DNA of 37,390 nucleotides from a virus: the IMG/VR virus record IMGVR_UViG_3300009706_000028, positions 1 through 37,390 of that record. One strand, written 5' to 3'. Under the pieces are notes generated by a model. That model had not been told where the DNA came from. It saw only the letters and a list, made by a program, of their open reading frames with translations, and ran no database searches. This document shows positions 23,269-35,880 of this stretch, piece by piece; the first letter of the stretch is position 1, and each line of letters begins with the position of its first letter. A program made the translations under genes and the position numbers.

Positions 23269-24300
23269 ATGTTAAAAGCATTTTTTAGAAGTAAACAATG
23301 GGCCTTATGGGCCTGGGGCGGAGGTGGTTTACTTGCTATCTCTTTATGGATACAAGTACAGATAACAGTAGCCATAAACAAGTGGTATGGCGGCTTTTAT
23401 GATTTACTACAAACATCAGGAACATATAAAGATAATTCAGCAGAAGGTATTGCGTTATTTTACGATAAGTTAATTAGTCTTTCTTATTGGACTAATGGCT
23501 TCGAAGGTGACCCATCTTTTGTTGTGTTAGCATTCCCTTATGTTGTATTAGCAGTACTAACAGGTTGGTTTACTCGTGTATATGGACTGCGATGGCGCGA
23601 AGCAATAACGTTTAATTACATACCGCGTTGGCGTACAGTTAAGGAAGAAATAGAAGGCGCATCCCAGCGTATTCAAGAAGACTGTAATCGGTTTGCGCGA
23701 ATTGTAGAGTCATTGGGTTTACAAGTTGTTAGAGCTATTATGACATTAGTAGCATTTATTCCAGTATTATGGGGTTTAAGTAGTGCTGTTGAAATCCCAT
23801 TCTTTAGTGAAATACCTGGGTCATTAGTTTGGGTAGCTCTCACGGTATCATTGGGTGGTTTAATAATCTCATGGTTTGTAGGTTGGAAATTACCAGGACT
23901 TGAATACAATAATCAGAGAGTAGAAGCGGCGTTTAGAAAAGATTTAGTACTTGGCGAAGATGATAAAGCCAACTACGCACAGCCCGAAACTATATTAAGT
24001 TTGTTTACAGGAATAAAATTTAACTATCATAGGCTGTATTTACATTATGGTTATTTTGATACATGGATGATTATGTATGACCAATTTATGGTCATTGTTC
24101 CATACTTAATAATCGGTCCAGGTTTGTTTACTGGCGCAATATTGTTAGGTGTGGTAGTACAAGTTAGTAATGCGTTTAGTAAAGTACATGGTGGATTTGC
24201 ATTATTCTTACATAATTGGACTACAATAACTGAACTTCGTAGCATATGGAAACGTTTGCACGAATTCGAAAAAAATCTCGATAAGTACGCAATTGCTTAA
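23269..24300 (+). CDS. sbmA: SbmA/BacA-family peptide transporter
   Basis: SbmA/BacA proteins are inner-membrane, proton-driven importers of peptides, microcins and some antibiotics. The middle shows the family core: WRTVKEEIEGASQRIQED, IMTLVAFIPVLWGLS, KLPGLEYNNQRVEAAFRKD, LVLGEDD, and a C-terminal SKVHGGFALFLHNWTTITEL followed by LRSIWKRLHEFE. E. coli SbmA (406 aa) aligns from its third membrane segment (VNAWYAPFYDL against INKWYGGFYDL). This 343-residue protein therefore lacks about two N-terminal helices and keeps five or six hydrophobic segments. Its ATG follows gp46 by 8 nt with AGGAGG upstream, so it is the last gene of the gp55 operon, and a hairpin follows. A host-derived origin is likely; function in infection is unknown. 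Confidence 0.92.
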   Translation: MLKAFFRSKQWALWAWGGGGLLAISLWIQVQITVAINKWYGGFYDLLQTSGTYKDNSAEGIALFYDKLISLSYWTNGFEGDPSFVVLAFPYVVLAVLTGWFTRVYGLRWREAITFNYIPRWRTVKEEIEGASQRIQEDCNRFARIVESLGLQVVRAIMTLVAFIPVLWGLSSAVEIPFFSEIPGSLVWVALTVSLGGLIISWFVGWKLPGLEYNNQRVEAAFRKDLVLGEDDKANYAQPETILSLFTGIKFNYHRLYLHYGYFDTWMIMYDQFMVIVPYLIIGPGLFTGAILLGVVVQVSNAFSKVHGGFALFLHNWTTITELRSIWKRLHEFEKNLDKYAIA

Positions 24301-24309
24301 TTAGAGAGG

Positions 24310-24329
24310 AGAGGGGCAAATACCCCTCT
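24310..24329 (+). terminator. Hairpin after the SbmA-like gene, possible terminator or RNA processing signal
   Basis: AGAGGGG (24310-24316) and CCCCTCT (24323-24329) form a perfect 7-bp stem with loop CAAATA, starting 10 nt after the transporter stop. There is no U-tract downstream, so termination would be weak. It may instead stabilise the mRNA end or separate the transporter from the enzyme cassette. Confidence 0.5.
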
Positions 24330-24353
24330 TCAACTGTAAGGTAAATATTAGTA

Positions 24354-25253
24354 ATGAAGTATTTTGAAACAGAACCAGAAGATAATATTTTTACTGCATT
24401 AGTTGCAGATCTCACCCACCGTTGTAATATGGAATGTGCCAATTGTTATATCCCTAATCGTGCATTTCCTGATATGGACGCTAACAAATTATATTCATTT
24501 TTAGAACGTTTACCTAATAGAATATATGTTAGACTTATTGGTGCAGAACCAACAATGCGTGAAGATTTATTTGATATTATTCGTAATATTAAAAAGATTG
24601 GGCATAAGTGCAGTCTAACAACCAATGGGTTAAAATTAGGGCATAGAGATTATGTTAAGGAAATTAAAAATGCTGGCCTGCGCCTTATTTTAATTTCAAT
24701 GAATGGCGCCGGCGATGATGATGTTTATAAAATTATTGATAGTGGAAAATATGCAAATTTAAAAATTAGAGCACTTCGTAATTGTATGTTAGAAAATATG
24801 ATTATTAATACAGGAACTATTATTGCAAAAGGTATTAATGAACATACAATCGATGATCAAGTTAATTTGTTTTTTAATATAATGGAAGAAACAAATTATA
24901 AACCAAGAGTCAAACCTATATTACGTTTTAAAAGTGTTGGCAAAATTGGCAGGCATATGGATGGAGATACTACATATAATATTAATGAACTTATTGATCT
25001 TTTTAAACAAAAATTTGATATACAGCCTTCGGATCAACCAGTACAAAATAGTGGTAGGACATCTGTTGATGGAACCTATGGATTAATTGGAACTATATAT
25101 GAATATAACAATGTTCTAATACGTTTTGTTGATTGGGAAGTTGACGATGACGGTGTAGTTGATTCAGGTAGTGAATATAGAGGACGTATTACTAAAGATT
25201 GGAAATGTGCTCCATTTTTTGAAAATATAAAGTTAAACGAATATGGATATTAA
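24354..25253 (+). CDS. Radical SAM enzyme, MoaA/PqqE-like core
   Basis: The 299-residue protein has the radical SAM cluster motif C24-x3-C28-x2-C31 (LTHRCNMECANCY), which binds a [4Fe-4S] cluster that cleaves S-adenosylmethionine to start radical chemistry. The GGEP-type SAM-binding motif is present as LIGAEPTMREDL, and a CSLTTNGLKLG strand follows. The C-terminus has no cysteine-rich SPASM domain; only one Cys remains (DWKCAPFFENIKLNE). Substrate cannot be predicted. It opens a tightly packed cassette: its stop overlaps the next start by 11 nt. The Shine-Dalgarno is weak (AAGG about 12 nt upstream). I recall similar proteins in other phages but no defined role. Confidence 0.85.
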   Translation: MKYFETEPEDNIFTALVADLTHRCNMECANCYIPNRAFPDMDANKLYSFLERLPNRIYVRLIGAEPTMREDLFDIIRNIKKIGHKCSLTTNGLKLGHRDYVKEIKNAGLRLILISMNGAGDDDVYKIIDSGKYANLKIRALRNCMLENMIINTGTIIAKGINEHTIDDQVNLFFNIMEETNYKPRVKPILRFKSVGKIGRHMDGDTTYNINELIDLFKQKFDIQPSDQPVQNSGRTSVDGTYGLIGTIYEYNNVLIRFVDWEVDDDGVVDSGSEYRGRITKDWKCAPFFENIKLNEYGY

Positions 25254-25863
25254 TGAAATTATTAATAATCCAGATCCAGTAATATTGGGTATTATAGAAA
25301 AAGAATTACAAACATTATCAGAGCAAAATTTACATAACGTTGAAAATTACCAAGGGTTAATAACTGATATGAAGGACTATGATTGTTTTCATGTTATAAC
25401 CGAGGACGATACACTTATTGCTTTCTGTGGTTTATACAGTAAACGTTGGAATAATGTTGGTAGAGCATTACAACGTGCATATAAGAATCCATTATATAGA
25501 CGCAAAAGTTTAGCATATAATTCTACTGACAATATGCAACATTTATGGAGTGAAATTTTTGCTCCTTTACAAATTGCATTTGCTAACAAAATTGGATTGG
25601 ATGCTGTATTTGTTACTACAGAATTTCCACGTCGGTGGAAAAGTTTAAATCGATTTACTCAACGTTTAAATGGAACGTTTGAAATGCTTCCAAATATGTA
25701 CTTTATATGCAATAAATATAATACAGAAGGAAAATATATCGGAGCACATTTTGCAAAAACGTGTTGGCAAAATGTATCATTGTGTATTTTAAATGATGAA
25801 TATGTATTTGATTTCGATTCAATGACGCATAATGAATGGAGAAGTTATTTTGAAAAACAGTAA
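25243..25863 (+). CDS. Uncharacterised 206-aa protein, possibly GNAT-fold acyltransferase
   Basis: I do not recognise this family with certainty. Residues ~43-58 (CFHVITEDDTLIAFCGLYSK) look like the paired strands of an N-acetyltransferase, followed by a basic segment GRALQRAYKNPLYRRK. A second half has LQIAFANKIGLDAVFVTTEF followed by an aromatic/basic stretch, as in the CoA-binding half of some phage GNAT proteins. The canonical Q/RxxGxG/A loop is not obvious. The gene overlaps the radical SAM gene by 11 nt and the dioxygenase by at least 14 nt, so the three are probably co-translated and functionally linked. Confidence 0.6.
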   Translation: MDINEIINNPDPVILGIIEKELQTLSEQNLHNVENYQGLITDMKDYDCFHVITEDDTLIAFCGLYSKRWNNVGRALQRAYKNPLYRRKSLAYNSTDNMQHLWSEIFAPLQIAFANKIGLDAVFVTTEFPRRWKSLNRFTQRLNGTFEMLPNMYFICNKYNTEGKYIGAHFAKTCWQNVSLCILNDEYVFDFDSMTHNEWRSYFEKQ

Positions 25864-26467
25864 ACCAATTAGTTTAGATAATTTATTAAATTATTCAGAT
25901 CAAACATTCATTGACGTTGCGGCCGAAATTGAAAAAGTAATTCAAAAAGTAAAACCTATTTACATTGGAAAAGATTCTGATGGCGATCTTGCATTAGTAG
26001 ATGAAAAAAACAAAGAATGGGGAGCATGGGTATTAGTTGATGATACTGTATATGGGGATGTTGATTATTATAAACCGCGCAGTTGGAATGCAATGGCCTT
26101 GCGTTTATTTCCAAAATTAGTTAAGTTTATAAACGATTTACCTATCGAGGGGTTAGGTAGAGCAATAATAATGTCAATTGATGCTAATAAAGAAGTTACA
26201 ACACACATTGATAATCAATTTTTGGATAATCAAGAAGTTTTTGATTATGATAGATTATTAAACATTAGTTTTGGAAATAAGAAACGTTTATATATGTACA
26301 ACCCCGATACTAATACAAAAAAATATTTCGAAGGTAAAATTAATTGGATTGATGTAAGTGATTATCACGGAGTTGATCCTTCTGCAGATTTTACATACTC
26401 TGTAAGGGTTGATGCAAAACTTAATAAAGATTTTAGACAACTGGTTCACGATAAGTATGGGGTATAA
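25850..26467 (+). CDS. 2-oxoglutarate/Fe(II)-dependent dioxygenase-like protein
   Basis: The product shows the facial-triad pattern of double-stranded beta-helix dioxygenases. Numbered from an upstream in-frame ATG at 25832, H125-x-D127 (TTHIDNQF) and a distal H179 (VSDYHGVD) would bind iron, and R192 (TYSVRVD), 13 residues later, would bind 2-oxoglutarate. The spacing resembles aspartyl/asparaginyl hydroxylase-type enzymes. The TTG at 25850 is the more likely start: GGAGA (25838-25842) is well placed for it, giving about 205 residues and a 14-nt overlap with the upstream gene. Starting at 25832 would add six residues. It is the third gene of the overlapping trio; the substrate is unknown. 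Confidence 0.72.
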   Translation: MKNSKPISLDNLLNYSDQTFIDVAAEIEKVIQKVKPIYIGKDSDGDLALVDEKNKEWGAWVLVDDTVYGDVDYYKPRSWNAMALRLFPKLVKFINDLPIEGLGRAIIMSIDANKEVTTHIDNQFLDNQEVFDYDRLLNISFGNKKRLYMYNPDTNTKKYFEGKINWIDVSDYHGVDPSADFTYSVRVDAKLNKDFRQLVHDKYGV

Positions 26468-26470
26468 TCA

Positions 26471-26477
26471 ATAAATA
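26471..26477 (+). promoter_or_regulatory. Late promoter -10 motif ATAAATA (diiron enzyme)
   Basis: ATAAATA lies 29 nt before the ATG of the heme-oxygenase-like enzyme, in the 38-nt gap after the dioxygenase gene. TAGGAG (26492-26497) is the ribosome binding site. This suggests late, gp55-dependent expression of the last cassette gene in addition to any read-through. Confidence 0.55.
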
Positions 26478-26505
26478 CTACTATTACTTTTTAGGAGTTT
26501 GTCTG

Positions 26506-27333
26506 ATGATTAGTGATCTCGAAGTATTTGATTATTTTAAACAAGGATTACATGAAGAAGTTTTAACTCATCCAATTATCAAACGCAACAGATATCTATG
26601 GTGGTTTTCTCAGAACACAGATTTAGATAAAGAAGACATTATCTACTTTGCAAAACAATTTTCTGTTTTTTCAAATCAATTTATTATTGCACAATTACTA
26701 AAAACACTCAATTCAAATAGTCTCGAACAAATGCGAGATGCTAAAGAAATATTAGTAAATGAATTAGGAGTTGTATTTAAGTCTGAAAATAAAGTAAATG
26801 CAACTGAAATCGATCCCGAAGTAGTTGGTGTAGAAGGTACCGTTGATGGCGGCACATTTAGATTTAAGGCCGCACATTTTGAATGGCTTTTATTTTTTGT
26901 AAAGCCGCTTGGATTAACATTTAATGATATTGGTAAACGTAAACATGCTGATCCAGCAACACTTTTCTTTTGTGATGAGTTAATTAGAATCTACGGTAGT
27001 GATGATTTTAGTACTGCCGCTGGCGCTAGTTTTGCTGTTGAAAATTGGGCAAATGCCGGTTTTTGGAAACAGTTAATTCAAGGATTGGAATGTTATAGTA
27101 AAGAATCTGGAATACAATTAAACTTAGGATTCTTTAAATGGCATGATGCATTAGAAGCACAACACGCACAACACACATGGGATGAGTTAGAAGATTTGTT
27201 TCTTAATAATAAAGACTTCGACCAGGATAAATTTATTCGTGGGGCACTAGAAATGCTCGACGGTGTTCAAGCATTTTGGGAAGGGTTAGATCAGCACAGG
27301 ATTACAAGGTACTGGCGCGATACCAGAGGTTAA
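26506..27333 (+). CDS. Heme-oxygenase-like diiron oxidase/oxygenase (HDO)
   Basis: This 275-residue helical protein carries the six-ligand set of the HDO superfamily: E86 (VNELG), H124 (AAHFEWLLFF), E179 (VENWANAGFW) and H213-x3-E217-x2-H220 (HDALEAQH). The final H-x3-D/E-x2-H spacing is that of CADD-type enzymes. HDO enzymes bind two irons and activate O2 to oxidise amines, fatty acids or amino acids (UndA, SznF and CADD are known members). About 35 residues are inserted between the first Glu and His. The family also includes metal-free PqqC/TenA relatives, but the intact ligands argue against those. It ends convergently with the nuclease gene: the two stop codons overlap in TTAA. Confidence 0.8.
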   Translation: MISDLEVFDYFKQGLHEEVLTHPIIKRNRYLWWFSQNTDLDKEDIIYFAKQFSVFSNQFIIAQLLKTLNSNSLEQMRDAKEILVNELGVVFKSENKVNATEIDPEVVGVEGTVDGGTFRFKAAHFEWLLFFVKPLGLTFNDIGKRKHADPATLFFCDELIRIYGSDDFSTAAGASFAVENWANAGFWKQLIQGLECYSKESGIQLNLGFFKWHDALEAQHAQHTWDELEDLFLNNKDFDQDKFIRGALEMLDGVQAFWEGLDQHRITRYWRDTRG

Positions 27334-27833
27334 TCTTTTTGTGAGTATTCTTTAACATTCTCTTTATTATCAGAAAAGAATTTATCAAATTCACAAAAAT
27401 ACCAACTTTTGTATGTGATGCCACGGTTAGTAACCATATGATGTTTAAGTTCATACATTACATATTTGCCTTTGCGATTAAACTTCATAATAATTAAATT
27501 AAAGTCGCCTTCGTCGGCGGCATCGTATGTCTGTTGTATCCAAGTGTTTAGAATTGGAATTTCTTTATTTTGAAACAACTGATGAAACGGAAAATCCGCG
27601 TATGCTTTACATTCAACGTTCAAATGTCCCCAATTGTCTGGCGGAATGATATCACTTTTGAATCCTCTAATTTGATTCTCTGATAAGTGTTCTTTACGAA
27701 CAGCATTTTGTCCACCAACGTATGCACCACTTTGTGGTACTCTTGTAAAACTATCCTCGTATAATTCAGACAAGTAATTTGCTATGTCTCTTTCAAAAGT
27801 TTTACCTTTGTCTTTAGATTTTTTTCCTGACAT
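27330..27833 (-). CDS. PD-(D/E)XK nuclease, Holliday-junction-resolvase-like
   Basis: The 167-residue protein has the order of conserved residues of Hjc-like PD-(D/E)XK nucleases: E14 in KGKTFERDIANYL, a basic loop (TRVPQSGAYVGG), D61 in KSDIIPP and E74-x-K76 in VECKAYADFPFHQL. Such enzymes cut branched DNA or junctions, which would suit resolution of recombination intermediates before packaging, or degradation of host DNA. It is transcribed opposite to its neighbours, from a near-consensus promoter about 50 nt upstream, with AAAGGAAAA before the ATG at 27833. No helicase or methylase partner is adjacent. Confidence 0.78.
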   Translation of the reverse strand: MSGKKSKDKGKTFERDIANYLSELYEDSFTRVPQSGAYVGGQNAVRKEHLSENQIRGFKSDIIPPDNWGHLNVECKAYADFPFHQLFQNKEIPILNTWIQQTYDAADEGDFNLIIMKFNRKGKYVMYELKHHMVTNRGITYKSWYFCEFDKFFSDNKENVKEYSQKD

Positions 27834-27860
27834 TTATTTTCCTTTTTTTGTAGAAACCGG

Positions 27861-27889
27861 TTGACAACGTTCTCTACTTTGTGTATTAT
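27861..27889 (+). promoter_or_regulatory. Sigma70-type promoter upstream of the candidate ncRNA
   Basis: TTGACA (27861-27866), 17 nt, TATTAT (27884-27889): a perfect -35, optimal spacing and a good -10, with predicted start near 27896. No gene-length reading frame follows on the plus strand for nearly 2 kb, so the expected product is an RNA. The -35 overlaps the palindrome AACCGGTT (27855-27862), a possible operator. Confidence 0.78.
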
Positions 27890-27913
27890 ATAGTCAATGG
27901 TACAAAAAGTCAA
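27885..27913 (-). promoter_or_regulatory. Sigma70-type promoter of the PD-(D/E)XK nuclease gene
   Basis: On the minus strand TTGACT (27913-27908), 17 nt and TATAAT (27890-27885) face the nuclease gene, with a start near 27878 and a leader of about 45 nt. Its -10 occupies almost the same bases as the -10 of the plus-strand promoter, so the two promoters should compete. Confidence 0.72.
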
Positions 27914-28360
27914 ATGAAATTATCAAACATCAGGCGCAGTAGGCACACGGCACACTTGGCACACAAACGCGGCAAAAACAAAATCAGGCTTCGCAAAATT
28001 AAACTTTCTAATAAAACTATTAATGGCACACTAGGCAACATTTAGGCATTACATAGCAACCTTAATGGTGTTAAGAGCACCCGCATCGAGGCTGTTTTTT
28101 ACGGTCGGATTTTGCGAAGACGTAATTACGTTGTTGCAGGGAAAACGCTAACCTAAGGCTAGAACGATTACGGCTCTGAGAAAAAAGCAACCGTATACTT
28201 TAGTAGATGTTGTCAGTAAGCATCACTAAAGTTCCGTTGGTATAGAAGACTGAGGTAGGGAGTACCGGCTAACCGCTTCCGCAAAACAATCCTCTTTATT
28301 GAATGGTGAAATACTCGAATGATGACACCTCATACTTCTCCCGCAAGGGAGAAGTATGGC
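27896..28360 (+). ncRNA. Candidate large structured noncoding RNA, undescribed
   Basis: This is the largest gap without a gene (27834-28463). It starts at a near-consensus promoter and has no convincing reading frame. An 11-bp perfect long-range pairing joins CTTCGCAAAAT (27989-27999) with ATTTTGCGAAG (28109-28119). A 12-bp hairpin with one bulge lies at 28197-28232, and GGTG/CACC and GGTA/TACC stems lie around 28067-28081 and 28254-28266. A perfect 12-bp stem capped by a GCAA tetraloop lies at 28331-28358. GGCACAC occurs four times near the 5' end. The features suit a multi-domain RNA of about 460 nt. I could not match it to tmRNA, RNase P, SRP, 6S or a group I intron. A GOLLD- or ROOL-type phage RNA is possible but unproven. 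The 3' end is a guess. Confidence 0.55.
28331..28358. other. Perfect 12-bp hairpin with GCAA tetraloop
   Basis: CATACTTCTCCC (28331-28342) pairs fully with GGGAGAAGTATG (28347-28358) around GCAA, a GNRA loop typical of structured RNAs. GAATGAT occurs on both sides (28317-28323 and about 28369). No U-tract follows on the plus strand, so it looks like an RNA domain rather than an intrinsic terminator. Confidence 0.75.
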
Positions 28361-28432
28361 AAAAATCTGAATGATAACAAGTAATCTTATTAAGAAGTAA
28401 AAGAAAGTTTGAATAGAATGAAAAACTTTTAC

Positions 28433-28450
28433 AATGCCTGTTAAGGCATT
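28433..28450 (-). terminator. Probable terminator of the gp26 operon
   Basis: AATGCC and GGCATT form a 6-bp stem around a 6-nt loop, 13 nt past the stop of the small membrane protein gene. On the minus strand a run of five T occurs shortly after. It may also end the plus-strand RNA, but no U-tract follows in that direction. Confidence 0.45.
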
Positions 28451-28463
28451 CCTAAAGTGAATA

Positions 28464-28670
28464 TTAGTTACGCTTCGTCGGACTCTGAGTAGGTAATAAC
28501 TTATTTTCGACTTTTAACAATATCATGTTGATACTTGTAATACATTCATACCAAAAATAAAGCGTAACCGGAACTAGCCAAACAAGTGCTATATAAAGTA
28601 CACTTGGTTCGCTTTTTAATATAAAAATAACAAAAAGACTGAATGCTGTTGCTAAAAACATAAACTTCAT
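28464..28670 (-). CDS. Small two-helix membrane protein, 68 aa
   Basis: I do not recognise the family. The sequence has two hydrophobic segments, at about residues 2-18 (KFMFLATAFSLFVIFIL) and 25-42 (LYIALVWLVPVTLYFWY), then a polar basic tail ending PTKRN. The start ATG overlaps the stop of the upstream frameshift reading frame (ATGA), so it is translationally coupled to the tail-assembly gene. A role in lysis (holin or spanin-like) or in membrane localisation is possible, but nothing specific supports it. Confidence 0.6.
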   Translation of the reverse strand: MKFMFLATAFSLFVIFILKSEPSVLYIALVWLVPVTLYFWYECITSINMILLKVENKLLPTQSPTKRN

Positions 28671-28903
28671 AATAATGCTATACCGGATTCTTTAGTACGT
28701 TCTATATTTTGTTCAATTAAATCCATAATCATACTTCGATCGTCTATACTTAATTGCCAGGCTTGTTCGATAGTAATACTACCTCTCATATACCAGCAGA
28801 TTTCAAGTACTTGCTTTTTTAAGGCTCTAGTTTCTGTTGCAAGATCATTTAGATAGTCGGAAATCTCTTCTTGAGACCCGACTAGGAGCCTATATCGAAA
28901 AAA
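28667..28903 (-). CDS. Frameshift-encoded C-terminal extension of the gp26-like protein
   Basis: In the -1 frame relative to the upstream gp26-like gene, an open frame runs from a TAA 12 nt before the slippery site to TGA at 28667-28669. It has no ATG, GTG or TTG until its middle, so it cannot be translated as a whole by normal initiation. After slippage at F291-F292 it adds 76 residues, giving a 368-residue fusion. The extension includes ETRALKKQVLEICWYMRGSI and WQLSIDDRSMIMDLIEQNIE, similar to small coiled proteins I recall from tail-assembly loci of marine T4-like phages. The arrangement parallels the G/GT tail assembly chaperones beside the tape measure of lambda-like phages. An internal ATG start (WYMRG) is the alternative. 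Confidence 0.75.
   Translation of the reverse strand, partial: FFRYRLLVGSQEEISDYLNDLATETRALKKQVLEICWYMRGSITIEQAWQLSIDDRSMIMDLIEQNIERTKESGIALL
28854..28903 (-). promoter_or_regulatory. Programmed -1 frameshift signal: slippery heptamer plus hairpin
   Basis: On the minus strand T-TTT-TTC (28903-28897) is in phase as an X-XXY-YYZ heptamer, 12 nt before the zero-frame TAG. Twelve nucleotides downstream, starting at that stop, TAGTCGG pairs with CCGACTA and, after a TT bulge, GTCTC pairs with GAGAT (one G-U) around AAGAA: a 12-bp hairpin at 28884-28854. Both tRNAs can re-pair in the -1 frame. The heptamer falls in the only window (about 30 nt) between the -1-frame stop upstream and the zero-frame stop. 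Confidence 0.8.
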
Positions 28904-29772
28904 CTTGCTGGATTAAATTCTATTTTTTGATTATAAGAATGTTCGCATTCCGGGCATACAAGTTTCCACTCTCTAGCGATGCCTTTGTCATTTACACTAT
29001 TTGCTTCGTTCATGATTAGATCGGCTTCTTGTTTTCCAATGCCTTGTACCCATGCTAAAATATGTTTTTTATTAGTAACTTCAGTTTCTTCGGTTGCTTC
29101 GCCCTCTTCATCTTCGGTACTAGGTATAATAACTTTAATAATAGAATTGGCCAAGATTACAATATTCAAATCTGCCATTGCTTGAAAACTTTTATTAAAT
29201 ACCTTTAATTTTTCAAAGTCATCAATTTTCTTTTCTTCATCAGATGTTAATCTATTAAGTTCGGTAGTTTCACGGAATGCTTGAAGAGCAGCCATTTGAC
29301 TATCTTTATATGTATATGGCCGAATATAAACAGTTAAACCATTATCTAGATTAACTATATATTCGTCATCTAGTTCTTCAACAGTTTCTAAAATAGCCTC
29401 GATATTAACATCATAATCATGCTTGTGCTCACATTCAGGACACTCAGAACCAATTGGTAAATCTTGCCCGTATGTTGCATATCTCGATGCAAGTAAAATT
29501 ACATCAACATCATTTGATGATAAGTTATAAACATCTTGAATTCCTGTTACACTACGAATAACTGAAACTAAACTTTCACCGTTTAGCAATGCATCAGGAT
29601 TACGAAGCATGGTTTCGTCTTTTGCAGTCATCGGAAAAATAGGAATTTCGTCAGTAATTTGACTTTGTGTGTCCAGTTCTGAAAATTTACCTCGACTTGG
29701 TAAAGATACATATAATTTTGGAACTCTAAGAAATCCGTCCAATGGATTAATATTTTTTACGTTAGTAGTCAT
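28882..29772 (-). CDS. gp26: gp26-family baseplate hub/tail assembly protein
   Basis: The 296-residue protein matches the T4 baseplate gp26-type family: a proline-rich start (FLRVPKLYVSLPSRGKF), then DEIPIFPMTAKDETMLRNPD and LLNGESLVSVIRS. It has two CPEC pairs about 160 residues apart (SECPECEHKH; LVCPECEHSY) that probably bind one zinc ion. In T4, gp26 acts in hub assembly with gp51. GGAGG lies 9 nt before the ATG. It is divergent from the tape-measure gene and its last codons hold a -1 frameshift site, so it probably yields a short and a long form, as tail assembly chaperones do. Confidence 0.82.
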   Translation of the reverse strand: MTTNVKNINPLDGFLRVPKLYVSLPSRGKFSELDTQSQITDEIPIFPMTAKDETMLRNPDALLNGESLVSVIRSVTGIQDVYNLSSNDVDVILLASRYATYGQDLPIGSECPECEHKHDYDVNIEAILETVEELDDEYIVNLDNGLTVYIRPYTYKDSQMAALQAFRETTELNRLTSDEEKKIDDFEKLKVFNKSFQAMADLNIVILANSIIKVIIPSTEDEEGEATEETEVTNKKHILAWVQGIGKQEADLIMNEANSVNDKGIAREWKLVCPECEHSYNQKIEFNPASFFDIGS

Positions 29773-29878: not shown

Positions 29879-32800
29879 ATGGCAGAAATGATGATCGATG
29901 ATTGGGCAACGGAGACGACGCTCGATAAAATCAGACAAATTCTAGAAGGTAATATTAAAAAAGGCCCGCTAGATGCCCTTCTCAAAGTAATGGAGGACAT
30001 GGCTAAAGGAAAGGACGTTGATGCGGCCCGGGCCCGATCCGTTATGGAATCTGCTAAAGCAACTGCTGATGCAACCACCTCAAGCGCAGATGCAGAAGGT
30101 AAAAAGTCAGGTGTTGAAGATTCTCGTTGGCGCAAATTAATCGACAACGGCAAAAAAGTCCACAATGAAATTGCAAAACAAGATATTGGTAAGCATTTAA
30201 TGGATGCTGGCGGTATGCTTGCTATGCCTATTGCGTCAATGGAAGACGCATTTGCTAAAATTAGTGGAGTGTTTACAGCAGTTGGCGCAAGTGTTTTTAA
30301 TGCATCAAAAGCATTAATATCAAGTATGGGTAAAATTGGTGCAGGCATTGGTAAAGCAATGGGTGCTATTGGTATGTTTGGCGGTGCTTTATTAAGTGTT
30401 GCCACAGGCGCAGTTGGATATTTACTCGGTGCTATAACCGCAATGGGAGATACATTCTTTGATCTGTATGATACAGGTATTAACTTTGCATCAGGATTAA
30501 AAGAAGGTGCATCTGGTATAGGATCAATGTTAGAAGTTGCTACTGATGCTAGATTATCTCTTGGAGATTTTGCAGAATACTTAGCAAAAAATACTTCAGT
30601 GGCACTTAGTATTGGTACTAAAAATATGGCGCAACTTAGTCTTGGTGTTAGAGATGCAATATATGATATGGGTGCCTTTGGAATGTCAATTTCAGAGACT
30701 AATGAATATTTAGGCGATTATTTAGAATCGTCACGTTTGACTGGCACATTAGAATCAATGAACCAAGCACAACGAACGCAAGCAGGCGCGGAATATTTAG
30801 AACAAATTACTAGGTTATCTGCGGCAACCGGTAAACGACGAAAGCAAGTTGCTGAAGAATTAGCACAAATAAAGAAAAGTACTGGTGCTCGAGCCTTTTT
30901 AATGGCCCTTGGTGATAAAGAAAGATTACAAGCAGAGCAGGCAATCGACACGATGACGGGTTTAATGAATACGTTTGATGACACCGGCGGTATGTCTAAA
31001 GATTTTGCCGACTCGCTGTTGTTAGGAAACTTTGCCGCAACCGAAACTGGTATTGCAATGGCACAATCCGGACGTCAAGTTGAAGCAAACATGATTCAAG
31101 ACATTCAAAATAGACTTAAAAATGGCCAATTAAATAAGAAACAAGCCGAAGAAGAAATGAAGCGAGTGGCTGCTTATGCGGCCGCTAATACATCCGCAAT
31201 AGAAGCCACAGCACAAATAGCCGTGGCGTTCGGCGACGAAGCCCGTCAACATGTAGCGTTTACAGCAGGTGCTAAATTATTAAACAAATCTATGGCAGAC
31301 ATGAATACTGGAGTAACCAAGACCGAAAAAAGTATCGGAAACTGGGATGAAATGCAAAATGCTATCTCACAGACTTGGCAAAAATTTATGTCTACCTTAT
31401 TTGGCGGCGATGAAGGAAATGACTTTTCTAAGATATTAGGCGATATCTCAGCGACGTTCAGCACAATGTTAGGTCCAAACTCAGATTTTACTAAATCATT
31501 GCATAGTTTTGCTGAAACAATGGCAACACATGTATTAGAGGCATTAAAATGGTTTCAGAGCGGCGGCGCCAAGGAAACGATGGGAAAGATAAAGACCTTT
31601 TTAGCAGAACTCCCAGTTAAAATTAAGGCGTTTACTGCTGGCCTCGGTGAAATGGTAGACGCTATTAAGAGCTTTTTAATGAAAGACTCCGGTGAAAAAG
31701 ACAAAGATGGCAAAGCAATTATGGAATTTAAATCCTTTGGCGAAATTATTGGCGACACAATTAAAAAAGGCCTTGCCGCGGTAAATTGGCTTAAAGTTGG
31801 AGGTATTATTGCGGCCGCATTTGCTGGTATATTCCTTATGAAATCCGTTGTAGGCATGTTTACTTCATCACTTACTACTGGTATGGGTTCTCTATTAGGC
31901 AAAGTGGCACCTGGCTTAGCAAAAGTAACCGGCGGCGCTGGCGCGGCCGTTAGTAAGGTAGCAGGCGGCGGCGGCGCAAGCAAAGGCGGAATGGATACAA
32001 TTGCTAAAGCAGTAGGTAAACTTGGTAAAGGAGTTGGCCAAGCAATTAAAGGACTTATGCAAGGCGTGGCCGGCGGATTAAGTGCATTCAAACCACAAGT
32101 ATTAATAGGTGCAGTAATATTTGGTTTATCGATAGCGGCAGTCGGCGCAGGTATAGCGGCGGCGGCGTGGATTATGGGTAAAGCATTACCCACACTTGCT
32201 GAAGGTTTAGGAAGTTTTGCTACTCTTGATGGAGATAATTTACTTGATGTTGGTTTAGGAATGCTTGCTGTAGCCGCAGGATTAGCGGCTATGGGCGCCG
32301 GATCGGTAGTCTCAGGAATTGGTGGTTTAGTAGGCGGCGCATTTAGTAAATTAGGAGACATGATCGGCGCTAAAAGTCCACTTGTAATGTTAGAAGAATT
32401 TAGTAAAGTTAATATTAATACTAAAAACGCTATAAAAAATGCCGAAGCAATGGTAGCATTTTCAAAAGCAATGGCTATGGGAGGCGGCGGAGCGGCCGCG
32501 GCAGGTATTGGTACGTTAGTTGGCGGAATAACTGGTGCCCTTGGTAAATTCTTTGGCGCCGATGATCCGTTAACACAACTTAAAAAGTTTGGCGCGGTTG
32601 ATATCGATGGTGCAAAAGTTAAAGTTAATGCCGAGGCAATGAAACTTTTTGCTAGTGCAATGGCAGATGCACCAACAATGAAAACAGATGTAGTCGGTGC
32701 GTTGTTTGCTGGAGTTGTAAGCATTTTTGGCGGCACTGTAACAATGCCTTGGGCCAATTTAAAGTTATTTGCTGATGCAGATGTCGACGGAGCAAAAGTT

Positions 32801-34087
32801 AAAGTTAATGCTGAAGCAATGAAACTCTTTGCCAGTGCAATGGAGGCCGCACCAGTAATCAAGCCAGATATAGTTGGTGCTTTGTTTGCTGGAGTTGTAA
32901 GCATTTTCGGCGGCACTGCAACAATGCCTTGGGCCAATTTAAAGTTATTTGCCGATGCTGATATTGATGGTGCAAAAGTTAAAACTAATGCCGACGCAAT
33001 GAAACTTTTTGCCACAGCGATGGAAACTGCACCAGTAATCAAATCAGATGTAATTGGTGCGTTGTTTGGAGCAATTGTAAGTATATTTGGTGGCGAAGTA
33101 AAAATGCCGTGGGATAACTTAAAGTTATTTGCCGATGCTGATATTGATGGAGTAAAAGTAACAGCAAATTCTGCCGCAATGAAAGCATTTTCCAACGCAA
33201 TGACTAATGTACCAGTAATTGAAACTACAAAGGTTGGTGGATTATTTGGTGCTATTGGAACTATTTTCAGTGGTAAAACAGTAATGCCATGGGCAAATGT
33301 AAAAGCATTTGCTGATGCAGACATGGGCGATGCAACTAAGTTAACGGCAAATGCTAAAGCATTAGGTGATTTTGGTACAGCAGTATCAGGTATGCCAGTA
33401 ATGCCAGAAGGCACAAGAGAAGGTGGTGCTTGGGGATTTGTTAAAGGTATATTTGCTGGCGACACAAAAATGCCATGGGATAAAGTGAAAGCATTTGCTG
33501 ATGCAGACATGGGCGATACTACTAAAATAGTAGCCAATGCTAATGCTTTATCAATATTTAGTAAAACAATGTCAGGTATTGATCTAGCAAGTCTCGAAGC
33601 ATGGGGCGATTCGGATTCAATGGATAAAATGTCTAGTGCATTTGGAAACTTGTTTGGTAAAAATTCACCATTAACTCAAATAGCAAACTTAGATAAAATT
33701 TCTACGCCATTATCAACAGCAGGCACATCATTAGATGCTTTTAATCCTAAAATGAAAACATTATATGATATGTTAAAAGATCCTGCATTTGTAGCAGGCG
33801 CCGGAGCAATTAAAGTATTAACTTCTAATTTAGGAGATCTTGATGATGCAGTTAATGACTGGTCGAAAGATGAATTAGAACAATTTAAATCTATTACTTC
33901 GTCGTTAGGTAATTTCACAGGCGCTCAAATTAAAGGCGGCCAAGAAGCACAAACAGGAAAATTAGAAGAAATTAATACATTATTAAAATCCATCGACGAA
34001 CACGTTGTTGCACAGACAACAGCATTGTTAGGTGAGGGTAAGAGAACTACCGCGGCCACTAAAGACTCAAGTATGCATGTATCTTAA
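29879..34087 (+). CDS. Tape-measure-like tail protein with membrane-type segments and tandem repeats (1,402 aa)
   Basis: Length, low sequence complexity, Ala/Gly-rich hydrophobic stretches and position next to the tail-assembly gene point to the tape measure protein that sets tail length and enters the host membrane (gp29 role in T4, about 590 aa). Hydrophobic segments occur near residues 110-200 (MGAIGMFGGALLSVATGAVG) and 630-660, and around 740-800. The region before them is helical and charged. Residues about 900-1240 consist of 60-residue tandem repeats. The start ATG at 29879 lacks a strong Shine-Dalgarno; GGTGG lies about 13 nt upstream. A long open frame on the opposite strand is a by-product of its codon pattern. 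Another large structural protein is possible. Confidence 0.72.
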   Translation: MAEMMIDDWATETTLDKIRQILEGNIKKGPLDALLKVMEDMAKGKDVDAARARSVMESAKATADATTSSADAEGKKSGVEDSRWRKLIDNGKKVHNEIAKQDIGKHLMDAGGMLAMPIASMEDAFAKISGVFTAVGASVFNASKALISSMGKIGAGIGKAMGAIGMFGGALLSVATGAVGYLLGAITAMGDTFFDLYDTGINFASGLKEGASGIGSMLEVATDARLSLGDFAEYLAKNTSVALSIGTKNMAQLSLGVRDAIYDMGAFGMSISETNEYLGDYLESSRLTGTLESMNQAQRTQAGAEYLEQITRLSAATGKRRKQVAEELAQIKKSTGARAFLMALGDKERLQAEQAIDTMTGLMNTFDDTGGMSKDFADSLLLGNFAATETGIAMAQSGRQVEANMIQDIQNRLKNGQLNKKQAEEEMKRVAAYAAANTSAIEATAQIAVAFGDEARQHVAFTAGAKLLNKSMADMNTGVTKTEKSIGNWDEMQNAISQTWQKFMSTLFGGDEGNDFSKILGDISATFSTMLGPNSDFTKSLHSFAETMATHVLEALKWFQSGGAKETMGKIKTFLAELPVKIKAFTAGLGEMVDAIKSFLMKDSGEKDKDGKAIMEFKSFGEIIGDTIKKGLAAVNWLKVGGIIAAAFAGIFLMKSVVGMFTSSLTTGMGSLLGKVAPGLAKVTGGAGAAVSKVAGGGGASKGGMDTIAKAVGKLGKGVGQAIKGLMQGVAGGLSAFKPQVLIGAVIFGLSIAAVGAGIAAAAWIMGKALPTLAEGLGSFATLDGDNLLDVGLGMLAVAAGLAAMGAGSVVSGIGGLVGGAFSKLGDMIGAKSPLVMLEEFSKVNINTKNAIKNAEAMVAFSKAMAMGGGGAAAAGIGTLVGGITGALGKFFGADDPLTQLKKFGAVDIDGAKVKVNAEAMKLFASAMADAPTMKTDVVGALFAGVVSIFGGTVTMPWANLKLFADADVDGAKVKVNAEAMKLFASAMEAAPVIKPDIVGALFAGVVSIFGGTATMPWANLKLFADADIDGAKVKTNADAMKLFATAMETAPVIKSDVIGALFGAIVSIFGGEVKMPWDNLKLFADADIDGVKVTANSAAMKAFSNAMTNVPVIETTKVGGLFGAIGTIFSGKTVMPWANVKAFADADMGDATKLTANAKALGDFGTAVSGMPVMPEGTREGGAWGFVKGIFAGDTKMPWDKVKAFADADMGDTTKIVANANALSIFSKTMSGIDLASLEAWGDSDSMDKMSSAFGNLFGKNSPLTQIANLDKISTPLSTAGTSLDAFNPKMKTLYDMLKDPAFVAGAGAIKVLTSNLGDLDDAVNDWSKDELEQFKSITSSLGNFTGAQIKGGQEAQTGKLEEINTLLKSIDEHVVAQTTALLGEGKRTTAATKDSSMHVS
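32581..33600 (+). repeat. 180-bp tandem repeats in the tape-measure-like gene
   Basis: Units begin at about 32581, 32761, 32941, 33121 and 33301 (exactly 180 bp apart), then near 33488 after a unit of 186 bp. Each encodes a variant of FADADxDGAKVKxNAEAMKL followed by FASAM, a variable proline-containing segment, GALFAGVVSIFGG and MPWANLK. The first units are the most alike at DNA level, indicating recent duplication; the later ones are diverged. A weaker copy precedes the array at about 32380-32580. Period and frame are preserved, as expected if each unit adds a fixed length to a tape measure. Confidence 0.9.
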
Positions 34088-34146: not shown

Positions 34147-35880
34147 ATGAGTTGGCGAAAACATTTTACAGTATACGATCAATCTAACTTTAGAGGTAGA
34201 GCAGATAGTGCTACCGGAACAGGTGCGGCATCTAATAGCAAATATGCTTCGTGGTTACCTGAAGTATATATGGGCCCACCTAATAGACTCGAACGTTATA
34301 TGCAATATGACCAAATGGATGCAGATAGTGAAGTAAATGCGGCATTAGATATTATTGCTGAATTTTGTACACAAGTCGATGATGCTACAACATTACCATT
34401 TGAAATACATTTTAAAAAAGAAGCAACTGAATCAGAAATTAATGTATTGCAAAGTACTTTAAGACAATGGTGTAATATTAATGATATGGATCGTCGTGCT
34501 TGGCGTTTAGTGCGTAGCACATTAAAATATGGCGATCAATTTTTTATGCGTGATCCTGAAACTTGGAAGTTATATTGGATCGATCCAGCAAAAGTTGAAA
34601 AGGTTATTGTTAATGAAGGCAAGGGCAAAAAAGCAGAAGAATATTGGATTAAAGATTTAGATCTTAATTTGCAAACTTTAGTTGCAAGTAATATGCATTC
34701 TGGACGTGATTATTCGTCCAAAGCAAATCCAGCCATCCCAAATATAACAGGTGGCCAATCATCGTCGACTGTTGGTTCAATGGAAGGCTTAGGTATGGGA
34801 GGCTCAACAGCAGGATTTAGTAATGCAGTACCAGTTGATGCAACTAATATTGTACATATTAGTTTAAGTGAAGGCTTAGATAATAACTGGCCTTTTGGTA
34901 ATAGTATTTTAGAGCCAGTTTATAAAATCTTTAAGCAAAAAGAAATGCTTGAAGATGCTATTTTAATTTATCGTGTACAACGTGCTCCAGAACGCAGAGT
35001 ATTTTATGTTGATGTTGGTGATATGCCACGTTCACGTGCTATGGCGTTTATTGAGCAAGTTAAAAATGAAATTCATCAAAAAAGAATTCCTAATAAATCA
35101 GGCGGCGGCGCCAATGTAATGGACGCGGCATATAATCCATTATCAATGATTGAGGATTATTTCTTTGCACAAACTTCTGAAGGTAGAGGTTCACGAGTTG
35201 AAACATTACCGGGTGGTGAGAATTTAGGACAAATTGATGATTTAAAATATTTTAATAATAAATTATTACGTGGTTTACGTGTACCAAGTTCTTATTTGCC
35301 AACAGGACCAGAAGACGGTACTGCTGTTTATAGTGATGGCAGAGTTGGTACAGCATTTATTCAGGAATATAGATTTACAAATTTCTGTAAAAGACTACAA
35401 GATTTAATTTCACCGTGGTTAGATGATGAATTTAAATTATTTTGTAAACAGCGAGGTATTGAGGTCGAAGCAAGTTTGTTCGAATTAGAATTTACAGAAC
35501 CACAAAATTTTGGTAAGTATAGACAAATTGAAGTTGATGGCGCACAAATGAATGTGTTTTCAGCCGCTGTAGCAATTCCGTTTATGAGTAAACGTTTTGC
35601 AATGAAACGGTATTTGGCATTGACAGATGACGAAATCCAACAAAATGAAAGATTATTCCTTGAGGAAGTTGGCGCCGAACATCCAATGACTGCACTTGAT
35701 GCAAGCATGGTTGATGTTGGTGTACGTCCAATGGATAGTGGTGATTTAGCACCTGATATTGATGCAGATTTGGATATGGGTGGCGATATAGGTGGTATGG
35801 AACCCGGAGCAGAGTCTCCAATTAGTGGTGCAGAAAATGCGCCAGCACCTGTAGCACCAGCGGCAGAACCGGCTGTATAA
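34147..35880 (+). CDS. gp20: Portal protein gp20
   Basis: The portal dodecamer nucleates prohead assembly, is the DNA entry channel and docks the terminase and neck. The 577-residue product closely follows the T4-like gp20 pattern: ASWLPEVYMGPPNRLERYMQY, MDADSEVNAALDIIAEFCTQ, DQFFMRDPETWKLYWIDP, NNWPFGNSILEPVYKIFKQK, LIYRVQRAPERRVFYVDVGD and NPLSMIEDYFFAQTSEGRGS. T4 gp20 is 524 residues. The extra length is mainly a Gly/Asp/Pro/Ala-rich tail (SGAENAPAPVAPAAEPAV). It opens the head-gene run portal, core proteins, protease, in the T4 gene order. Confidence 0.96.
   Translation: MSWRKHFTVYDQSNFRGRADSATGTGAASNSKYASWLPEVYMGPPNRLERYMQYDQMDADSEVNAALDIIAEFCTQVDDATTLPFEIHFKKEATESEINVLQSTLRQWCNINDMDRRAWRLVRSTLKYGDQFFMRDPETWKLYWIDPAKVEKVIVNEGKGKKAEEYWIKDLDLNLQTLVASNMHSGRDYSSKANPAIPNITGGQSSSTVGSMEGLGMGGSTAGFSNAVPVDATNIVHISLSEGLDNNWPFGNSILEPVYKIFKQKEMLEDAILIYRVQRAPERRVFYVDVGDMPRSRAMAFIEQVKNEIHQKRIPNKSGGGANVMDAAYNPLSMIEDYFFAQTSEGRGSRVETLPGGENLGQIDDLKYFNNKLLRGLRVPSSYLPTGPEDGTAVYSDGRVGTAFIQEYRFTNFCKRLQDLISPWLDDEFKLFCKQRGIEVEASLFELEFTEPQNFGKYRQIEVDGAQMNVFSAAVAIPFMSKRFAMKRYLALTDDEIQQNERLFLEEVGAEHPMTALDASMVDVGVRPMDSGDLAPDIDADLDMGGDIGGMEPGAESPISGAENAPAPVAPAAEPAV

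Follow-up and report, generated by a model that had tools for sequence, protein, structure and literature searches.

Gene organization of the gp26-type locus

The sequence analysed here, referred to as the window, comprises 37,390 bases of a virus record and includes T4-type structural genes. A gp26-type gene occupies positions 28882-29772 of the minus strand and encodes, in the zero frame, a protein of 296 aa. This protein was assigned to the T4 gp26/gp51 family by its match to PF12322 (E 1e-14; 55.2 bits vs the curated cut-off of 24.5), also matches phrog_150 (baseplate hub, E 3.9e-21), and would be the short, TAC-N-like form of a tail assembly chaperone. The gene ends with the codons AGT TTT TTC GAT ATA GGC TCC TAG, in which the slippery heptamer T_TTT_TTC (28903-28897, minus strand; TTT and TTC in phase) is located 15 nt before the end of the TAG stop. 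The -1 frame is open from three codons upstream of the heptamer and continues for 76 codons past the slip to a TGA at 28669-28667; this extension (28667-28897, minus strand) would form the C-terminal part of a 368-aa long form. Only one start codon in this frame leaves more than 30 codons to be read, an ATG located 40 codons from the end, and no start codon precedes the second half of the frame. A 12-nt spacer (28885-28896) separates the heptamer from a stem-loop on the same strand (28884-28854; 12 bp, a 2-nt bulge, and a 5-nt loop), which starts exactly on the zero-frame TAG and lies within the 5-15 nt expected of a downstream structure at a programmed -1 frameshift site. The preliminary description of this DNA had reported an in-phase U_UUU_UUC, a 12-bp bulged hairpin 12 nt downstream, and a -1 frame that opens 12 nt before the slippery site, runs for 76 codons, and has no start codon in its first half, all of which agree with the sequence.

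On the downstream side, a small ORF of 68 aa (28464-28670, minus strand), whose gene status is putative, was identified from the ORF list and the sequence. Its ATG overlaps the stop of the -1 frame (ATGA), which is consistent with ribosomes arriving in the -1 frame. Beyond it lie ~600 nt (27834-28460) with no ORF longer than 54 aa and no Rfam or tRNA match, and then a gene for a RusA-like/PDDEXK endonuclease (27330-27833, minus strand; phrog_244, E 3.6e-22; PF24608, E 2.2e-26), in the same order as in PA5oct and Phosso. A cassette on the plus strand (23269-27333), located between T4-type core genes, contains genes for an SbmA/BacA-like transporter (PF05992, E 3.8e-117) and a radical SAM enzyme (PF04055, E 1.2e-15), two ORFs without a family, and a weak, below-cut-off match to a haem-oxygenase-like iron enzyme (PF14518, E 0.0042); it resembles a phage-borne peptide-modifying or metabolite pathway.

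On the upstream side, the gp26-type gene adjoins a divergent structural gene of 1402 aa (29879-34087, plus strand), followed by the portal protein gene (34147-35880, plus strand; phrog_213, E 4e-112), and this portal/tape-measure-like/gp26 order is shared with PA5oct and other jumbo phages. The 1402-aa protein is related by blastp to a structural protein of PA5oct (E 2e-14) and to one of Phosso (E 1e-7). Judged by its length, its position, and these weak relatives, and not by a family model, it is likely to be the tape measure protein, the role already ascribed to the divergent neighbour in the preliminary description, and would be the client of the chaperone.

Heptamer, extension, and possible stimulatory elements in related phages

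A tblastn search of 50,697 phage records identified 62 records with the zero-frame protein, all at less than 60% identity, and the 60 matches listed of these 62 end at residues 292-296, i.e. at or just past the slip site. Seventeen jumbo phages were taken as representatives: PA5oct, Phosso, Atu_ph07, Munch, 121Q, RaK2, XbC2, BF, XaC1, Kaldavass, Vibrio 2.275.O, XacN1, GAP32, CBB, Hallingskeid, SCTP-2, and RAS14. Together with the window they provide 18 jumbo-type loci, and all 18 contain TTTTTTY at the homologous Phe-Phe (TTTTTTC in 16 and TTTTTTT in two) followed by a -1 extension of 69-80 residues, in support of the frameshifting first proposed for this gene. As these phages are relatives, such counts do not represent independent observations. 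The extension of the window shares 46% identity with that of Atu_ph07 over 76 of 76 residues (E 1e-13).

Searches of IMG/VR yielded at least 80 loci with S-RIM8 gp26 as the query and three with PA5oct gp26, including near duplicates (e.g. L117 and L118). Among the matches listed, 82 of 83 loci contain TTTTTTC and a -1 extension, the other (L119) ending before the 3' end of the gene. TTTTTTY with a -1 extension is also present in S-RIM8, Vibrio phage Bakedbeans, Stenotrophomonas phage Moby, Nitratidesulfovibrio phage SRB7757, and Schizotequatrovirus R11Z. A search with gp26 of Pseudomonas phage Cygsa01 returned 17 loci, and the 16 that were read (the incomplete L163 was left out) all keep TTTTTTY and the -1 frame. 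Overall, among the matches listed and for loci read through the 3' end, the heptamer is present in 121 of 131 single-copy-type loci, cyanophages included (18, 82, 5, and 16 loci with it; 1, 1, and 8 without). Comparison of these sequences indicates that the frameshift site is very probably common to jumbo phages, cyanophages, and others.

The -1 frame is kept and the heptamer lost in Cygsa01, in the Ackermannviridae phage Mansal, and in 8 of 8 Ackermannviridae-type loci read (of 15). In these ten single-copy-type loci, ATT TTC replaces TTT TTC and thus no canonical heptamer is present, so not every member of the family requires the site. Loss of the heptamer with retention of both frames, which the preliminary description had named as counter-evidence, therefore occurs in the Ackermannviridae-type loci and Cygsa01 but not in the jumbo clade. 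A non-canonical slip site or re-initiation is possible at the ATT TTC loci, which offer a ready test case for non-canonical slippage. The loci concerned, Ackermannviridae-type and Cygsa01, include L123:3260-3400, L132, L134, L138, L142-L146, and L036:3760-3990. In Cygsa01, an ATG overlaps the stop codon (TAATG).

The stem-loop at 28884-28854 is real but not extreme. Folded alone, it has a predicted free energy of -14.6 kcal/mol (z about -3 to -4), and 0.4% of the 36-mers in the gene region are equally stable; in a 70-nt folding window, the z value of the region is only -1.24. In 70-nt folding windows of the 18 jumbo-type loci, z falls below -2 in four (PA5oct, Phosso, Atu_ph07, and XacN1) and reaches -1.96 in 121Q. 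A universal hairpin was rejected on the basis of a mean z of ~-0.8 at the expected offset across 19 jumbo-type loci. Of the two elements whose retention by homologues had been proposed as a check, the heptamer is thus kept in all 18 loci but the hairpin is not. The gp26 genes of cyanophages (e.g. S-RIM8) resemble the present gene in having TTTTTTC at this Phe-Phe position together with a conserved but shorter -1 extension. Folds are present 6-12 nt downstream of the heptamer at the cyanophage-type loci (mean z ~-2; 13 sampled of 78), and many of these loci contain a Shine-Dalgarno (SD)-like element, GGAGGG or GAGGG, ~9 nt upstream of it, a spacing known to stimulate -1 frameshifting. The GGAGGG-like anti-SD complement of loci L037-L116 gives a mean duplex energy of -6.6 kcal/mol vs -1.8 kcal/mol for the background. 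No SD-like stimulator was found upstream of the heptamer in the window or in the jumbo group. The stimulators therefore differ between the groups, whereas the heptamer is common to them.

Copy number and relation to T4 gp26 and gp51

Copy number itself was counted in the 17 jumbo records, S-RIM8, Bakedbeans, Moby, SRB7757, R11Z, Cygsa01, Mansal, T4, RB43, phiAS4, phiP4-3, and SFHK24. T4 contains two PF12322 genes, the short gene 26 and the divergent gene 51, which extends ~49 residues past the shared domain, and two such genes were also found in RB43, phiAS4, phiP4-3, and SFHK24. A single PF12322 gene is present in 16 of the 17 jumbo records (the profile misses that of SCTP-2 because of its divergence, and only tblastn detected it), in S-RIM8, Bakedbeans, Moby, SRB7757, and R11Z, and in the exceptions Cygsa01 and Mansal. 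The window is a fragment, and a second copy could lie outside it in the same phage; the single-copy state was observed in the records of its relatives. TTTTTTY is absent from the last 90 nt of the gp26 genes in 12 two-copy phages or loci. Other in-phase heptamers do occur in this region in RB43 and phiP4-3, and the Phe-Phe of T4 gp26 is encoded by TTC TTT, without a slip site. In T4, phiAS4, and SFHK24, the -1 frames of gp26 extend into the beginning of the gene 25-like neighbour; in RB43 and phiP4-3, stops interrupt them.

The extension alone matched no credible family in PHROGs or Pfam, and its homology to the C-terminal tail of gp51 was assessed by profile-profile comparison with 100 column shuffles. 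The cyanophage-type extension (78 of 80 loci plus five phages) scored 52.8 against the gp51 tail, with a probability of 97% and a maximum of 19.2 among the shuffles. The jumbo extension scored 25.1 (shuffle maximum 15.3) at a probability of 60%, and when taken alone it is weakly linked to the tail. On these scores, the -1 extension is the likely counterpart of the gp51 C-terminal tail, with a frameshift in place of the second gene. A T4-like layout in which the -1 ORF is a separate gene 51 was also considered and rejected, because in T4 this gene runs divergently from gene 26 and represents a full second copy.

We consider it rather probable that, across the T4 superfamily (cyanophages, Vibrio and Stenotrophomonas phages, and jumbo phages), both chaperones ancestrally came from a single frameshifted gene, and that duplication and fusion gave rise to the two-gene state of T4 (gp26 plus gp51) in its place. 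The Ackermannviridae and Cygsa01-type phages would then represent a third state, with the same two frames and a non-canonical slip site. The breadth of the single-gene state suggests that it may be older than the two-gene state of T4. This breadth may be new, as may the existence of a group in which both frames persist although the canonical heptamer is missing. One virus group in which the same two-product output is obtained by recoding or by gene duplication offers a clean evolutionary comparison, so that recoding and duplication lineages can be used to examine what makes the ratio between the two forms important for tail length.

Proposed frameshifting, alternative explanations, and the putative chaperone role

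We propose, with a probability of roughly 0.88, that the gene encodes a tail assembly chaperone pair (296 and 368 aa) by programmed -1 ribosomal frameshifting. Most ribosomes would stop at the zero-frame TAG and yield the 296-aa short form, and a minority, as we infer, would slip back one base at T_TTT_TTC and yield the 368-aa long form with its 76-residue C-terminal extension; the downstream hairpin probably aids slippage. On the model of lambda gpG/gpGT, the tape measure protein would be engaged by the extension and, during tail assembly, coated by the domain common to both forms. T4 would make the same pair from two genes, with gp26 as the short and gp51 as the long form.

The window contains 82 in-phase X_XXY_YYZ heptamers (in 20 ORFs), and only T_TTT_TTC at 28903-28897 has a -1 frame that continues for at least 30 codons past the stop of its own gene. 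In codon-shuffled genes, an in-phase TTTTTTY occurs within the last 20 codons with a probability of 0.018. Conservation is far stronger evidence against chance than these heptamer statistics. Beyond the Phe-Phe, the zero-frame residues are not conserved, whereas the -1 frame is. In the DNA of the extension, the changes at positions 1/2/3 of the -1 codons number 2/3/11, 4/4/19, 9/6/26, and 17/8/29 in four pairs of jumbo phages; this predominance of third-position changes indicates that the -1 frame is under selection as a protein. It is very likely that T_TTT_TTC is a genuine site of programmed -1 frameshifting, within a tail assembly chaperone gene of the gp26 type.

Among the alternatives, the one that survives best, although we regard it as improbable, is that the -1 frame is a separate small gene expressed by re-initiation or coupling at the zero-frame stop, and not an extension fused to the short form. 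An ordinary start codon for the second frame, the other observation named beforehand as counter-evidence, does occur near the junction in some relatives: an ATG overlaps the zero-frame stop in Phosso and Atu_ph07 and lies 5-14 nt from the heptamer in 121Q, XbC2, and Kaldavass, so re-initiation could also give a separate C-terminal piece there, and annotators have called a separate gene in Phosso, 121Q, XbC2, and Kaldavass. All five phages nevertheless keep the heptamer, no start codon precedes the conserved second half in the window, PA5oct, or RaK2, and T4 gp51 has the homologous tail fused to a full N-terminal domain. Less probable again is transcriptional slippage on the T run as the source of the second form, in which a one-base insertion would also give access to the -1 frame. 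Six consecutive T residues are few for RNA polymerase to slip on; moreover, the heptamer keeps to the reading phase, has C as its usual last base, and is accompanied in several groups by a downstream fold or an upstream SD-like element, all of which argue for the ribosome.

It is more doubtful still that a conserved Phe-Phe accounts for the T run and that the -1 frame is a useless relic. F291 and F292 are indeed invariant in 18 of 18 aligned proteins, but the first Phe codon is TTT in every jumbo-type case, and the preceding codon ends in T at 19 of 19 loci (the 18 jumbo-type loci and L117) while encoding any of seven amino acids (S, H, N, R, Y, A, or D), although only 56% of the Ser codons in these genes end in T. 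The TTC TTT of T4 and the third-position bias in the -1 frame speak against a relic as well. A sequencing or assembly error, i.e. loss of a T from the run of six T in what is really one continuous frame, can be dismissed, since the same arrangement is found in isolate genomes from many laboratories and in the 121 of 131 loci among the matches listed.

The preferred reading, programmed frameshifting, also bears on annotation. The frameshift in this gene is unannotated, although other tailed phages are well known to use this mechanism. In public records, the second half appears as a gene of its own, e.g. as a 'baseplate hub assembly catalyst' in S-RIM8 (part of the extension) and as a hypothetical protein in 121Q and XbC2; these separately annotated second halves lie at L034:4232-4369, L006:3705-3914, and L009:3861-4058, respectively. 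Calling the second half a separate gene is likely a widespread annotation error. Frameshifting would explain the small 'hypothetical' or 'gp51' ORFs that follow gp26 in many T4-related genomes; most of these ORFs probably encode the latter portion of a frameshifted protein, and a single joined CDS is the annotation they call for.

Xu, Hendrix, and Duda reportedly described the lambda gpG/gpGT proteins and related frameshifted tail assembly chaperones in 2004. As in lambda, short and long products here would come from one gene by -1 slippage near its 3' end, beside the tape measure gene; the adjoining of the two-frame gene and the tape-measure-like gene bears out the analogy drawn in the preliminary description. 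The present gene differs in belonging to the T4-type (gp26) family and in being divergent from the tape-measure-like gene, which lambda G precedes in the same operon. T4 gp26/gp51 share the family PF12322 with the present protein, and the -1 extension matches the gp51 C-terminal tail, but T4 has two genes without a slippery site in place of one gene with a frameshift. Vladimirov, Gautam, and Davidson are said to have treated the tail assembly chaperone genes of T4-like phages in Virology in 2022; we take these to be genes 26 and 51. T4 gp26/gp51 would thus have been identified as chaperones in that year, so that a unification of the T4-type and lambda-type systems, which fits the present data, was at least partly put forward then.

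A passage of PMC10885494, citing Vladimirov et al. 2022, states that T4-like phages have one short chaperone copy and one long fused copy, and a passage of PMC12846349, citing the same work, mentions poly-T slippery sites in T4-like chaperone genes. The suggestion that the gp26/gp51 locus is undescribed is therefore not upheld by that title and the two passages. For the tail assembly chaperones of Vandenendeviridae and Andersonviridae, the latter source predicts a -1 frameshift with an invariant GTTTTT near the TAC-N end; these resemble the present gene in the position of the predicted frameshift but belong to other myovirus families. Among the titles and abstract openings outside subscription journals, no description of this gp26-type slip site was found.

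The AlphaFold2 model of the short form has a mean pLDDT of 74.5. The top row in VIA-align was the HK97 tail-assembly chaperone 2ob9 (Z 6.4, 3.6 A, 88 of 107 residues), tied with unrelated rows at Z < 8. This is the fold predicted in advance, and the match, being below the level that stands alone, is suggestive only. Foldseek with this model gave no match in the PDB at E < 0.001, and the family profile gave nothing credible among the sequences of solved structures. PMC3004832 counts T4 gp26 and gp51 among the hub assembly chaperones and states that gp51 is absent from the particle. In the virion mass spectrometry of CBB (PMC5259590, Table 4), CBB_251, the counterpart of the 1402-aa neighbour, is listed with 29 peptides, and CBB_249 and CBB_250 are unlisted; this fits a chaperone, but the portal protein CBB_252 is missing too.

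The tape-measure-like protein of the window (1402 aa) is longer than the counterparts in most of the related jumbo phages fetched (~710-830 aa) and contains repeats of roughly 60 residues, e.g. around MPWANLKLFADAD. This length and these repeats might reflect a longer tail.
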